From assembly GCA_021160245.1 (NCBI GenBank), contig JAGHCW010000004.1, positions 1 through 5,053 on the forward strand: a stretch of 5,053 bases of DNA, in the 5' to 3' direction. Each line of letters opens with the position of its first letter. The first letter of the stretch is position 1. Source of the DNA: a bacterium. Lineage in GTDB: Bacteria; B130-G9. Below are positions 70 through 5,053 of the stretch, piece after piece. A program made the translations under genes and the position numbers. The notes under the pieces are model-generated. The model had not been told where the DNA came from. It ran no database searches and worked only from the letters and a program-made list of their open reading frames with translations.

Positions 70-1290
70 GTGGCATCAGAACCTAACGTTGCCCGTATGA
101 AAGACAGCTTGCTGAGGAAAGCGAGGGGACACAAATTCCTAGGCTATCAGTGGATAACATCCGAGTTGGCCGATGACACCGCGCTATCAGACAAACAGCT
201 TAACGAGTTGCTCTTGGCATTGGGCGACAACGGAATCGTGGTCTTGGAGGGTGGCTCGTCTGAGTGCATTGATCCGCTCTTTGAAGCTTTGAACGGAGAC
301 CAAAATGACGAGCCTGACGGAGAGAAAGCGTACCTCAGTCCTGAGGATTACACGTTTGATGAAGATGAGGACCATGCCCTTGACGAGACGAGCGAGTTCT
401 TGCACCAGTATTATCGGGACATAACCAAACTGCCACAAATAGAGAGAACCATTTCCGACCTCATCCAGGAAGGGAACATAGGCCTCATACATGCCGTAGA
501 TAAGTTGTTTGATTACAGGCTCAGGATTCGAGGCATAAACGCCTCAGACTGGATAGCGCTAGCAATGGAAAGGGCAATCGAAGATCAGCCACGGAGGATC
601 AGATGGCCAACCTGGGTAGTCTGGACCTCTAGACGCATTGCTTGCGCGTCCAGAAGCTTCGTTCAGCAATATGGCCGTGAGCCCACGCCGGAAGGGCTCG
701 CAGAGATACTGGCGACGTCCGTTGAGGAGATACTCAGGATCGAATATATCAGTCAGGAACCCATTTCCTTCGAAAGGCCAGTTGGAGAGCAAATAGACGC
801 GGCTGATCTACCTCATCCGGTGAAGATCAAGACCGGGAGGGCATCCGGACGTCAAGGCGAGAAGATACCGGCCCCACCGGCGCCGGGAGATGAGGTCCGC
901 AAAATGAGCGGCGAGGTCATCTCAAGGCTAAAGGCAGAGTCATCGGATGTCGGTCGCAGACTTGCGAACATCCTGGATCAGGCTGAGGATGGCAATATCA
1001 CTCAGGCAGACGCATCGCCCGCGAAGGTCCCCAAGGACACGCCAAAAAGTCTCACGGACCTAGATCCGCGGTTCCGAGCGCTACTGGAGCCGTTGTCGCA
1101 ACGTCAATCATGGGATAGGAAGAGCTTTGAAAACCTTGTGCGCCAACACAGTCTAATGGTATCAAATGCAATCGGTATGATAAACGGATGGGCCGACGAG
1201 GTTCTTGGGGATTTTCTGATAGAGGACAGCGATCCGGTGGTATTGAATCTTTCACTGTTGAGGAGAGCGCTCGATGAGCAAACCCATTAA
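70..1290 (+). CDS. Degenerate sigma-70-like / TerB-C fusion protein
   Basis: The 406-residue product joins two halves not normally found together. Residues about 5-62 resemble sigma-70 region 1.1. An acidic linker follows (78-107), then a trace of region 1.2 (105-126), region 2 (129-190, with DLIQEGNIGL at 130-139) and region 3 (198-243, with YGREPTPE and QEPISFERPVGE). Region 2.1 is mostly missing and region 4 is absent. From about residue 274 the sequence matches TerB-C, with a helix carrying RLKAESSDV and then LDPRFRALLE to GDFLIEDSD (331-387). Residues that read the -10 element are lost while the polymerase-docking motif is kept, so it is unlikely to be a working promoter-specific sigma factor. 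It overlaps the ATPase gene by 17 bases. Its role is unknown; I infer a sensor or adaptor subunit. The start is GTG at 70, behind GGAGA at 56-60. ATG at 97 is possible but has no ribosome site. The frame is open to the left edge, so a longer protein is not excluded. Domain calls are by eye. Confidence 0.85.
   Translation: MASEPNVARMKDSLLRKARGHKFLGYQWITSELADDTALSDKQLNELLLALGDNGIVVLEGGSSECIDPLFEALNGDQNDEPDGEKAYLSPEDYTFDEDEDHALDETSEFLHQYYRDITKLPQIERTISDLIQEGNIGLIHAVDKLFDYRLRIRGINASDWIALAMERAIEDQPRRIRWPTWVVWTSRRIACASRSFVQQYGREPTPEGLAEILATSVEEILRIEYISQEPISFERPVGEQIDAADLPHPVKIKTGRASGRQGEKIPAPPAPGDEVRKMSGEVISRLKAESSDVGRRLANILDQAEDGNITQADASPAKVPKDTPKSLTDLDPRFRALLEPLSQRQSWDRKSFENLVRQHSLMVSNAIGMINGWADEVLGDFLIEDSDPVVLNLSLLRRALDEQTH
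1260..1267 (+). promoter_or_regulatory. Strong ribosome binding site for the BrxD-like ATPase gene
   Basis: GAGGAGAG lies inside the end of the preceding gene. The AGGAG core at 1261-1265 is 8 bases from ATG at 1274. It fixes that start, and the 17-base overlap suggests translational coupling. Confidence 0.8.
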
Positions 1291-2593
1291 ACAGAGGGAG
1301 CGAAGCGCCATATTGCAGTCGCTTCGGGCAGGTGTGGTGCCCAAGATAGGCCTTCAGCATATTCAAGTGGGGAGAAAGGACGAGGTCGAGGCGATCATTC
1401 GAGACTTGGAGCTCATTGCCGATGGCGGCTCTACGGTGCGCCTCGTCATAGGCCGTTATGGCTCTGGGAAAAGTTTTCTGCTCAGCCTCACAAGGATACT
1501 TGCCTTGCATAAGAAGTTCGTCGTTGTTCAGGCGGATATCACGACAGACCGCAGGCTATACTCCAGGCAAGGGCAGGCCCGAGCTCTATATGCGGAATTA
1601 ATGCAGAACATGGCTGTCCTATCGAGACCGATGGGTGGTGCGATAGCAAGTGTTGTGGAGAGATGGGTCTCCGATGTCGATTTTCAGGTCAAGGAAGCCG
1701 GCGGGACCGAGGAAGATGTAGCCAGGGAGATATATAAGCAACTGAGGCCCTTACAGGACCAGGTGAGCGGCTACGATTTCGCCAACGTCATTATCAGGTA
1801 CCTTCAGAGCTTTCACAGTCAGGACGATTTGCTGATGGCGCACGCGCTTCGCTGGCTGCGCGCTCAATACACTACCAAGACTGAGGCAAGGCAAGATCTA
1901 GGCGTCAGGTCGATCATCGACGATTGCAGCATCTATGACTATTTGAAACTCCTGGCGGCATTCGTGCGAATGGCCGGGTTCGCTGGCCTTTTAGTATGCG
2001 TGGATGAAATGGGGGTTCTCTCTCACAGGTTGAACAATGCCCAATCGAGAAACGGGAACTACGAGGTGCTTCTGAGAGTGCTCAACGACTGCAACCAGGG
2101 CAATGTCAGCGGCATCGGATTTCTGTTTGCCGGGACTGACTCATTCCTTGAGGACCGCCGAAGGGGGCTTCATAGCTACGAGGCGCTCGCCACGAGGCTT
2201 GCGGAGAATACTTTTGCTGTTAATGGTCGCAGGGATTTCTCGGGGCCGGTCATACGCTTGGATAACCTGTCTCCAGAACACCTCTACGTCCTGCTGCACA
2301 ACATCCGAAATGTGTTTGCCAGCGGCGATCCGAGCACGCTTCTTGTGCCGGATAAGGCTCTGAAAGAGTTCATGGTTCATTGCTCGAAGAAGCTGGGCTC
2401 CGACTACTACTTGACGCCGCGCGAGACGGCAAAGGAGTTTGTGGGCTTTCTGTCGATTCTCGAGCAGAACCCAGAAATGGCTTGGGAGACCGTGCTATCC
2501 GGAACCAAGGCTGAGCCAAATCCTGACCAGAAAGGCCCCTCACCGGCTCATGATGGCGCTCGCAACGATGATCTCAAGGCATTCAAGCTATAA
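1274..2593 (+). CDS. brxD: BrxD-like AAA-type ATP-binding protein (DUF2791 family)
   Basis: The product is a 439-residue P-loop ATPase of the family found in BREX types 2 and 6 and in TerB-C-linked operons. The N-terminus carries the family's hallmark stretch SLRAGVVPKIGLQHIQVGR (16-34). Walker A is GRYGSGKS at 60-67 with K66. Walker B is the hydrophobic run ending in DE at 244-245. A sensor-1-like strand ends in AGTDS (286-290), and an RLAE segment at 308-311 could supply an arginine in trans. DYYLTPRE (377-384) is a conserved C-terminal feature, probably in a winged-helix region as in ORC/Cdc6-type ATPases. The last 30 or so residues look disordered. Length is as expected and all nucleotide-binding residues are present, so it should be active. 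Its exact task is not known; I infer that it loads or regulates the helicase encoded 20 bases downstream. The gene symbol is by family resemblance, since a full BREX locus is not visible. Confidence 0.9.
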   Translation: MSKPIKQRERSAILQSLRAGVVPKIGLQHIQVGRKDEVEAIIRDLELIADGGSTVRLVIGRYGSGKSFLLSLTRILALHKKFVVVQADITTDRRLYSRQGQARALYAELMQNMAVLSRPMGGAIASVVERWVSDVDFQVKEAGGTEEDVAREIYKQLRPLQDQVSGYDFANVIIRYLQSFHSQDDLLMAHALRWLRAQYTTKTEARQDLGVRSIIDDCSIYDYLKLLAAFVRMAGFAGLLVCVDEMGVLSHRLNNAQSRNGNYEVLLRVLNDCNQGNVSGIGFLFAGTDSFLEDRRRGLHSYEALATRLAENTFAVNGRRDFSGPVIRLDNLSPEHLYVLLHNIRNVFASGDPSTLLVPDKALKEFMVHCSKKLGSDYYLTPRETAKEFVGFLSILEQNPEMAWETVLSGTKAEPNPDQKGPSPAHDGARNDDLKAFKL

Positions 2594-2613: not shown

Positions 2614-4827
2614 ATGCCTGAGGGCAATCAGAAAGCGTTTGGCCTTCTCCATCCCTCCATCCAGCGCAAGTTGTATGACATGAAGTGGACCGAGCTTCGG
2701 CCAATTCAGGTCGATACCATTCGAGAGATAATCCTGGCAAAGAGTAGCCGAATCGTCATATCAGCCCAGACAGCGAGCGGGAAGACCGAGGCGGCTTTTC
2801 TGCCGATACTGTCAGAGATCGCTAACGAATGCTCCGGGGGCGTCAGGGCGCTCTATATTGGCCCCTTAAAGGCCCTCATTAACGACCAGTTTCGCAGGCT
2901 GGAGGACTTGTGTCAGCGCGCCTCTATCCCCGTTTGGAGATGGCATGGAGATGTGGGGCAGTCGTCCAAGAGAGCCTTGATCAAGACCCCATCGGGCGTA
3001 CTGCTCATCACCCCCGAATCACTGGAGTCCTTGTTCATCAATCGGCCGCAACATATCGACAAGTTGTTCCGTAGGCTTTCTTTCGTCGTTATCGACGAGA
3101 TGCATTCTTTCATGGGCACTGAAAGGGGAGCGCACCTGAAAAGCCTTATTCACCGACTGGCGCCCAGATCGAAGGAGAAGCTCAGCGTCATTGGCCTTTC
3201 CGCCACACTCGGCGATATGAAGCACGCGTGCGATTGGGTGCGACTCAATCAGACCGAGGGGGCTTTCTTGATTGAGGATGAGACTGAGGAGAAGACGATC
3301 CGCTACATGGTCCATGGGTACCTTAGAGAGCCATCAAGAGGTAAAGAGGCTTCTGACGAGGAGAATTGCGAGGGTTGCGGCCCAGAGGCGACAGCTGCCG
3401 ACGAGGCGATGGCATCTGACATCTACGAAGCCTTTAAGAACAAGACGGCGCTGATCTTCGCAAACAGCAAGAGCAAGCTGGAATTCTTTGCGGACCGAGT
3501 CAGACGAATATCACAACGCAAAGGGCTACTTAGTCCTTTCCGGGTTCATCACGGTTCACTTGGAAAGGGCGTGCGCGAGGATGCCGAGGATGACCTGCGA
3601 TCAAATCGCCCCACTTCGGTCTTCTGCTCAAGCACCCTTGAGATGGGTATAGATGTGGGGAACGTGTCCATTATTGGCCAGATCGGTCCTCCCTGGTCAG
3701 TGAGTTCACTGATCCAGCGTTTGGGGAGAAGCGGGCGCGGCCCTGAGCAGCCCTCCATAATGAGAGTGTTCATCGATGAATATGAATCCGGAAATAGCAC
3801 CCCAATAATCAGGCGCCTCTACCCCAGCCTTCTTCAGGCCATTGCGATGTCGGAATTGATGCTCCAGAAATGGTGTGAGCCCCCTGATCTGGACAGAATA
3901 CACGCCTCGACTCTGATACACCAAATAATGAGCGTAATCGCTGAGACCGGAGGAGTGAAGACGGACCGACTCCATCAGAAGCTAATTAAGAACGGGGTAT
4001 TCAAGAACGTGAGCAAAGATATGTTTATCCGGGTCTTGCGTTGCCTCGGAGACAAGGACGTGATCGAGCAGATGTCTGAGGGCGATCTAATCCTCGGCAT
4101 TGAGGGGGAACGAGTAGTCAGGAGGTTCGATTTCTACGCCGCCTTTCGTGTTGACGACGAGGTTCGCGTCATGCACAAGAGCAAATGCATTGGAAGCGTG
4201 CTCCTTTATCCCAGCCTAGCAGCGGATGGTTTCATTATTCTGGCCGGGCGTCGGTGGAAGATACTGGAGGTTGACAGAAAGCGAAGGGAGATCCTAGTGA
4301 CCCCATCAAAGGGCGGCCGGCTACCCTTCTTCTCTGGCAGCCACGGACCTGATGTTCATCCCGCCGTAAGACAGAAGATGCGGGAGGTTCTATTCTCGGA
4401 TAAGAGCATTCCTTATCTTGACCCCAAGGCCAGCGAACTTCTGGAATACGCTCGTGCCGTGGCCGACGATTCTAAGTTGAGCGAGGCCTGCTTCAGCAAA
4501 GATGAGTCCACGATTACGTGGTTCACGTGGACGGGTTCACGCATAAACAGGACCCTGATGGCTCTTGGGCATTTCTATGGCGATATGCACATTTCGGACG
4601 AAGGGATAGCCCTGAACTTCGAGAGGACCTCAGCAGAGAGGATATGTGAAGCCTATAGAGGATTTCTTGAAAGCTGTCCCACGGCTGTTGAGTTGGCTGC
4701 AAGCTTTCCCTGTCTTCAGCAGGAGAAGTTTGAGCACTATCTTTCTGATGCTCTGTTGGCTGAGGTTTTTGCAGACAGCAATCTTGACATAGATGGCGCG
4801 AAGAGAATAATCGAACATCTAGAGTGA
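2614..4827 (+). CDS. brxHI: Lhr-like superfamily 2 DEAD/DEAH-type helicase, BrxHI-like
   Basis: The 737-residue product has a full set of SF2 helicase motifs. These are a Q-motif-like LRPIQ (28-32), motif I AQTASGKTEA (51-60, K57), Ia GPLKAL (83-88), Ib ITPESLESL (132-140), II DEMH (161-164), III SAT (196-198), IV ALIFANSK (279-286), VHHGSL (311-316), V STLEMGIDVG (340-349) and VI QRLGRSGR (368-375). VHHGSL and QRLGRSGR point to the Lhr group, which are ATP-driven 3'-to-5' translocases acting on DNA or hybrids. Residues about 430-660 fit the Lhr-type winged-helix and beta-barrel region. No nuclease or methylase motif is seen. A short acidic stretch with two cysteines (245-262) lies between the two RecA lobes. 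It is the last gene of the operon and probably acts with the BrxD-like ATPase. It is too short to be a full-length housekeeping Lhr, and the partner gene favours the BrxHI assignment. The symbol is by resemblance. Confidence 0.9.
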   Translation: MPEGNQKAFGLLHPSIQRKLYDMKWTELRPIQVDTIREIILAKSSRIVISAQTASGKTEAAFLPILSEIANECSGGVRALYIGPLKALINDQFRRLEDLCQRASIPVWRWHGDVGQSSKRALIKTPSGVLLITPESLESLFINRPQHIDKLFRRLSFVVIDEMHSFMGTERGAHLKSLIHRLAPRSKEKLSVIGLSATLGDMKHACDWVRLNQTEGAFLIEDETEEKTIRYMVHGYLREPSRGKEASDEENCEGCGPEATAADEAMASDIYEAFKNKTALIFANSKSKLEFFADRVRRISQRKGLLSPFRVHHGSLGKGVREDAEDDLRSNRPTSVFCSSTLEMGIDVGNVSIIGQIGPPWSVSSLIQRLGRSGRGPEQPSIMRVFIDEYESGNSTPIIRRLYPSLLQAIAMSELMLQKWCEPPDLDRIHASTLIHQIMSVIAETGGVKTDRLHQKLIKNGVFKNVSKDMFIRVLRCLGDKDVIEQMSEGDLILGIEGERVVRRFDFYAAFRVDDEVRVMHKSKCIGSVLLYPSLAADGFIILAGRRWKILEVDRKRREILVTPSKGGRLPFFSGSHGPDVHPAVRQKMREVLFSDKSIPYLDPKASELLEYARAVADDSKLSEACFSKDESTITWFTWTGSRINRTLMALGHFYGDMHISDEGIALNFERTSAERICEAYRGFLESCPTAVELAASFPCLQQEKFEHYLSDALLAEVFADSNLDIDGAKRIIEHLE

Positions 4828-5053
4828 CCACATTCTCGACAGTTCCGTCAGAGAAGTTCACGCGCAACGCTCCAGAATGCCCCAAGACACGTTCTATGCT
4901 GCAGAATTCCAATTCATCCTCACGAATCTCTCTCCTATCCGTCAAATCTCAAGTCGCGAGAGTTAAGAAGCGTTCACTCCTACAAACAAAGCAGACCTTA
5001 TATCGACAGCCTGCTGCAATCAACCGCCAACGATAGCTCTGAAATTCGGGAGC
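4828..5053. other. 3' flanking segment with no convincing gene
   Basis: No ribosome site followed by a plausible protein, and no GC stem with a T-run, is visible after the helicase stop. A GTG at 4824 overlapping the stop opens a 70-codon frame to 5036, but it lacks a ribosome site and is rich in Ser, Arg, Lys and Gln like an arbitrary frame. The helicase frame stays open after its stop to the window end without an ATG. A 29-codon frame from ATG 4877 to TAA 4966 reads more like protein but has no ribosome site. The operon's transcription end is therefore probably beyond the window. Confidence 0.5.

Follow-up and report, generated by a model that had tools for sequence, protein, structure and literature searches.

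Why would an anti-phage protein begin with a piece of the cell's own RpoD? The question is raised by the window, by which we mean the whole stretch of DNA analysed here, one entire contig of 5,053 bp (C164) of a bacterial genome (G000). The assembly of this genome comprises 3.43 Mb and is 94.8% complete, and its phylum is represented by just four genomes. The window holds three plus-strand genes (Table 1), which form an operon of Shango (SngABC), an already described anti-phage system. The first gene encodes a SngA in which RpoD-derived sequence, joined to the TerB-C linker, stands where the TerB-N/TerB half would be. The system being known, the novelty lies in this sigma-fused variant of SngA; in a search that covered part of the literature, no fusion of a sigma factor to a Shango protein was found described.

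A Shango operon with a sigma-derived half of SngA

Shango, composed of a TerB-like protein, an ATPase and a helicase, has demonstrated activity against phages in Pseudomonas aeruginosa (PMC10250203). The window shares with it the three-gene order, SngB and SngC at E-values below 1e-160, and the linker and TerB-C end of a SngA encoded by the first gene (PADLOC SngA, E = 1.1e-17), whose end is overlapped by the start of sngB by 17 bases. The difference resides in SngA, where Pfam finds sigma regions in place of the N-terminal TerB-N and TerB domains. Because this half is replaced, the operon is a variant of Shango and not a typical member. A TerB-N domain encoded as a separate gene was considered and rejected, as a TerB_N search across the rest of the G000 genome gave nothing above the cut-off.

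The closest non-fused relative, carried by genome G319, is a SngA of 791 residues with the Pfam domains TerB_N (E = 1.4e-26), TerB (E = 1.7e-14) and TerB_C (E = 5.3e-22), in agreement with the initial annotation of the locus, which had named TerB-N as the usual companion of TerB-C. The linkers that precede TerB-C align among G319 (PVVIQTGKRLGRKGEAIP), the window (PVKIKTGRASGRQGEKIP) and a second fused SngA, from genome G001 (AVEVRTGRPSKRAGERIP). Given this homology with G319, the sigma sequence substitutes for everything ahead of the linker, the start of which is the fusion point.

Profile coordinates given here are residues of the open frame 1-1287, which begins 23 codons before GTG 70. Sigma70_r3 (211-267, E = 2.2e-11) and TerB_C (306-420, E = 1.7e-16) score above the curated Pfam cut-offs, and Sigma70_r1_1 (34-88, E = 0.0014) and Sigma70_r2 (150-201, E = 0.005) slightly below them. 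The best match of the sigma part is the RpoD model of NCBIfam (153-266, E = 1.1e-31), and a phmmer search against PDB chains retrieved 61 sequences, the names listed being all sigma factors (best E = 2.3e-23). The sigma match of the window SngA is far beyond chance. The reading frame is open as far as the contig edge, and the protein probably starts at GTG 70, since this codon aligns with the RpoD start, ATG 97 being the alternative.

Aligned with the RpoDs of its family, the window SngA presents regions 1.1, 2.2-2.4 and 3 in order, with 51% identity to its own RpoD over residues 150-267. Also, the YQWI motif of region 1.1 is common to this protein and the family RpoDs, and absent in the other RpoDs displayed. 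It departs from RpoD by an in-frame deletion of region 2.1 and of the non-conserved region that separates 1.2 from 2.1, by the absence of region 4, by changed promoter-reading residues and by its fusion to TerB-C. It thus falls short of the complete regions 2, 3 and 4 of an RpoD, scoring 110.5 bits where the RpoD cut-off is 555. The initial annotation had correctly delimited the gene, recognized an RpoD-derived N-terminus and placed TerB-C where region 4 is missing. Its proposed sigma order (1.1, a 1.2 remnant, 2, 3) is retained, except that region 2 is incomplete.

In the AlphaFold2 (AF2) model of the window SngA, region 1.1, the core of region 3 and TerB-C are confident, and the sigma-2 part is weak, with a predicted local distance difference test score (pLDDT) of about 50-68. 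The Foldseek matches listed are RpoD/SigA chains for this model, in line with a sigma-like fold, and sigma chains for the model of the G001 protein. The template modelling scores are low for both, because the relative positions of the domains are not predicted.

Table 1. Features of the window; coordinates are nucleotide positions.
Feature	Position	Strand	Basis
SngA variant, RpoD-derived N-terminal half + TerB-C	70..1290	+	406 residues, GTG start; ATG 97 possible
Sigma region 1.1-like part	100..264	+	Pfam r1_1 E = 0.0014; alignment to own-family RpoD
Region 1.2 remnant (QYYRDITKLPQIERT-like)	406..450	+	alignment; deletion of non-conserved region and region 2.1 comes next
Region 2.2 (SDLIQEGNIGLIHAVDK)	454..504	+	15/17 identical to own RpoD
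Regions 2.3-2.4 and start of 3.0	520..630	+	7/10 listed promoter-contact residues changed
Sigma region 3	631..801	+	Pfam r3 E = 2.2e-11; core pLDDT about 80-94
Linker (PVKIKTGRASGRQGEKIP...)	802..915	+	alignment; homologous to canonical SngA linker of G319
TerB-C domain	916..1260	+	Pfam E = 1.7e-16; PADLOC SngA E = 1.1e-17
SngB ATPase (BrxC/BrxD family)	1274..2593	+	PADLOC SngB E = 1.6e-161; Pfam BrxC_BrxD E = 1.4e-141
SngC DEAD/DEAH helicase (BrxHI-like)	2614..4827	+	PADLOC SngC E = 1.4e-236

The fusion in a second genus

The same operon is present on contig C5 of G001, a genome that shares the family of the window genome but belongs to a different genus, with SngB and SngC (87% and 82% identical to those of the window) downstream of a fused SngA. 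This protein matches the Pfam models Sigma70_r3 (E = 4.2e-10), Sigma70_r4 (E = 3.8e-11) and TerB_C (E = 1.4e-17). It runs from an RpoD region 1.1-like start to region 3 and region 4 up to the RpoD end, and then enters the linker. Regions 1-2 are largely missing, region 2.2 included, only the start resembling region 1.1. Region 4 is 76% identical to that of its own RpoD and is modelled by AF2 with a pLDDT of about 79-97. Moreover, the join sits at the same linker in both proteins. An assembly or recombination artefact is rejected, because two independent assemblies from different genera share the identical join and because the sigma part of the window is just 51% identical to its own RpoD.

SngB was found in ten of 386 sampled genomes and in two of the four genomes of the phylum, both with a sigma-fused SngA. 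Among the readable SngA genes of the SngB-bearing genomes in this sample, there was no sigma fusion outside this family. The fusion is thus known from two genomes of a single family. The repeated occurrence across distant genomes that the initial annotation had anticipated as support was not found, the architecture and its two downstream genes recurring in the second genus only. A pattern scan of the genome contigs matched mostly ordinary RpoDs. Plasmids carry TerB-C relatives, those annotated among the matches listed being TerB-type SngA, and no plasmid record spans most of the full window SngA query. No match was obtained in viral contigs searched with the TerB-C alignment or in phage records searched for SngB.

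Three observations concern the surroundings of these operons. Directly upstream of the fused sngA of G001 (L030 7031-7330 on C5) there is an open frame of 100 residues without Pfam match, which by eye resembles pieces of unrelated domains and is possibly debris of a capture event. In genome G362, a Sel1-repeat-like protein with a signal-like start (L038 548-1465) is encoded directly before SngB, in place of SngA, which may mean that the first subunit was replaced here as well or that the operon is broken. Finally, the last 127 bases of the window (4927-5053) are also found at the ends of two other G000 contigs, C75 (9763-9889) and C66 (1-127). The Shango contig and C66 would therefore be alternative neighbours of C75, and the operon may be carried by only some members of the source population.

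Origin and age of the sigma pieces

The RpoDs of the family share 51-56% identity with the sigma piece of G001, in comparison with 31-42% for other RpoDs, and the alignments indicate that the sigma part of the window descends from the RpoD of its family or a close relative. G000 also encodes another RpoD-like sigma factor, which includes region 4 (C148; L015 514-2133). It was rejected as the source of the sigma part, being only 35% identical to the query part, a match much weaker than that of RpoD.

Between the window and G001, the proportion of synonymous differences (pS) and the synonymous divergence (dS) are 0.44 and 0.65 for SngB, 0.37 and 0.52 for SngC, and 0.47 and 0.75 for the linker plus TerB-C, whereas RpoD is near saturation between the two genera (dS 3.4). 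Other genes common to the window genome and G001 encode proteins about 65-73% identical. Since the synonymous divergence of the operon is far below that of RpoD, and given this level of identity in other shared proteins, the Shango operon was probably transferred between the two genera.

The sigma pieces tell a different history from that of the operon. For region 3.2-4 of G001, dS is 0.39 when the comparison is with its own RpoD and 2.97 when it is with the RpoD of the window genome, the first value being close to the dS between two species of G001's genus (0.34). These distances indicate that this region was taken from, or overwritten by, the rpoD of that genus. In region 3.1, a short stretch (24 sites) common to both fused proteins, pS between the window and G001 is 0.73, higher than in the other parts of the operon (binomial P 0.003-0.016). 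Because region 3.1 exceeds the operon in pS and the G001 piece is young, the sigma pieces were not inherited as a single unit together with the operon. They may have been captured separately, or an early fusion may have been rewritten in part from the chromosomal rpoD. In a tree of the sigma parts and RpoDs, both fused copies lie on very long branches, and one and two origins are not separated. The TerB-C part is conserved (dN/dS 0.36) and the frame stays open.

Promoter-reading and core-binding surfaces

Relative to its own RpoD, the window SngA is changed at 2 of 17 positions in region 2.2 and at 21 of 36 in the adjoining regions 2.3-3.0 (P 0.001), both stretches being invariant across the four RpoDs of the family. 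In true sigma factors, region 2.2 is the β′-binding helix. In regions 2.4/3.0, seven of ten listed promoter contacts are substituted (Y430N, W433D, R436A, Q437L, T440E, H455W and E458W, in E. coli numbering). This numbering and the contact lists reflect general knowledge of sigma-70, the lists having been selected with the alignment already in view. The first five of these substitutions affect the −10 promoter-contact residues of region 2.4, which an RpoD would keep. In G001, the −35 helix changes from RERIRQ to RQCIDG, with four of the five listed recognition-helix contacts altered versus 18 of 88 other positions (Fisher P 0.01). Trimmed in frame and altered at promoter-reading residues, the sigma part has most likely lost the ability to function as a sigma factor.

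What the sigma part may do

We infer that the sigma part occupies the place of a sensor half, and it is plausible that the fused SngA senses phage takeover of RNA polymerase. Tentatively, and at somewhat less than even probability, we favour a Shango that carries the host sigma as an integrated decoy within SngA. Phage proteins that attack the host sigma factor or holoenzyme would also bind the sigma part of SngA, and TerB-C would relay this binding to the SngB ATPase and the SngC helicase, which would then act on phage DNA or on its transcription or replication. By being captured from rpoD again and again, and trimmed in varied ways, the bait would stay matched to what phages attack. The fuller proposition, of an immune sensor that repeatedly captures pieces of host rpoD as a decoy refreshed from the chromosome, with phage attackers of sigma-70 or RNA polymerase as the trigger of SngB/SngC, is more doubtful. 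The decoy would account for the choice of a phage-targeted host protein, for its refreshing from rpoD and for the dispensable DNA reading. In this regard, the major sigma factor is often targeted by phage proteins (PMC5053324, PMC3985653), and sigma70 often by small ones (PMC5053324).

Several points weigh against the decoy. The mechanism is drawn from sequence and structure models, the fusion is known from just two genomes, both in the same family, and the AF2 model of the window has low confidence in the sigma-2 part. Since the overlap between the copies is limited to region 3 and the initial residues, they have no phage-target surface in common. Also, the promoter-contact lists are taken from general knowledge, the contact losses of the window are not enriched over the divergence of the stretch as a whole (P 0.31), and the fast change of the sigma part could also reflect relaxed constraint.

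The sigma remnant could instead be a handle that docks SngA on core RNA polymerase, through region 2.2 on the β′ clamp helices in the window and through region 4 on the β flap in G001, bringing the ATPase and the helicase to transcription complexes on incoming DNA. Indeed, whereas promoter-reading residues are altered, each copy preserves a region with which genuine sigma factors bind core, as seen in the contrast between region 2.2 and regions 2.3-3.0 and in the well-preserved, confidently modelled region 4 of G001, and the conservation of region 2.2 is explained better by docking than by a decoy. Nonetheless, we consider it rather unlikely, because the two copies retain different core-binding regions, region 2.2 being absent from G001, because without region 2.1 the weakly modelled sigma-2 bundle is probably not intact, and because competition with RpoD might harm the cell.

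The fusion may instead be an evolutionary leftover, in which a chance joining to rpoD cost SngA its TerB-N half and the sigma sequence persists as a degenerating spacer that supplies a start codon, TerB-C alone being of importance. The fast evolution of the sigma part, with different pieces lost in each copy, and the conservation of TerB-C, SngB and SngC fit this idea. However, both copies have an uninterrupted reading frame, region 2.2 of the window and region 4 of G001 do not decay evenly with the rest, and one chance event poorly explains sigma sequence at the same linker twice, with at least one piece younger than the operon; we regard the leftover as unlikely. Very improbable is a fused SngA that still acts as an alternative sigma or an anti-RNA polymerase regulator, controlling the operon or shutting host transcription down upon infection. 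Its descent from a primary sigma factor and the example of MzaA, a sigma-70 family protein in the MZA defence operon (PMC9523054), speak for it, but the window copy is without regions 2.1 and 4, that of G001 is without regions 1-2, and key promoter residues are replaced in both.

Relation to known systems and implications

MzaA is the precedent for a sigma-70 family protein within a defence operon (NF041931; PMC9523054), and it matches the same residues of the window. It differs in its partner genes and in that no TerB-C was found in the matched protein. The window scores 67 bits against a MzaA cut-off of 800, with SngB and SngC as the two neighbours, and a search for the MzaA family returned ordinary RpoDs only, all below the cut-off. 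BREX has related ATPase and helicase families in BrxD and BrxHI, which score well below SngB and SngC, the BrxD cut-off being missed (166.6 vs 350 bits). A BREX identity was rejected in favour of Shango. The neighbours first described as BrxD-like are indeed an ATPase and a helicase, but they are SngB and SngC, of which BrxD and BrxHI are more distant relatives. Another sigma-like piece in a defence protein is the SIGMA-HTH-like domain of BrxL, a tri-helical domain inferred by structure comparison and not a multi-region copy of rpoD (PMC12839542).

In the literature consulted on Shango, there was no report of how infection is sensed. If a piece of the main host sigma factor can indeed stand in for the sensor half, that half probably recognizes the invader. 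If the decoy holds, the sigma version would point to the trigger, namely phage proteins that bind sigma or RNA polymerase. Bacteria would then have a counterpart of the integrated decoys known from plant immune receptors, here with a bait that is a copy of an essential host gene.
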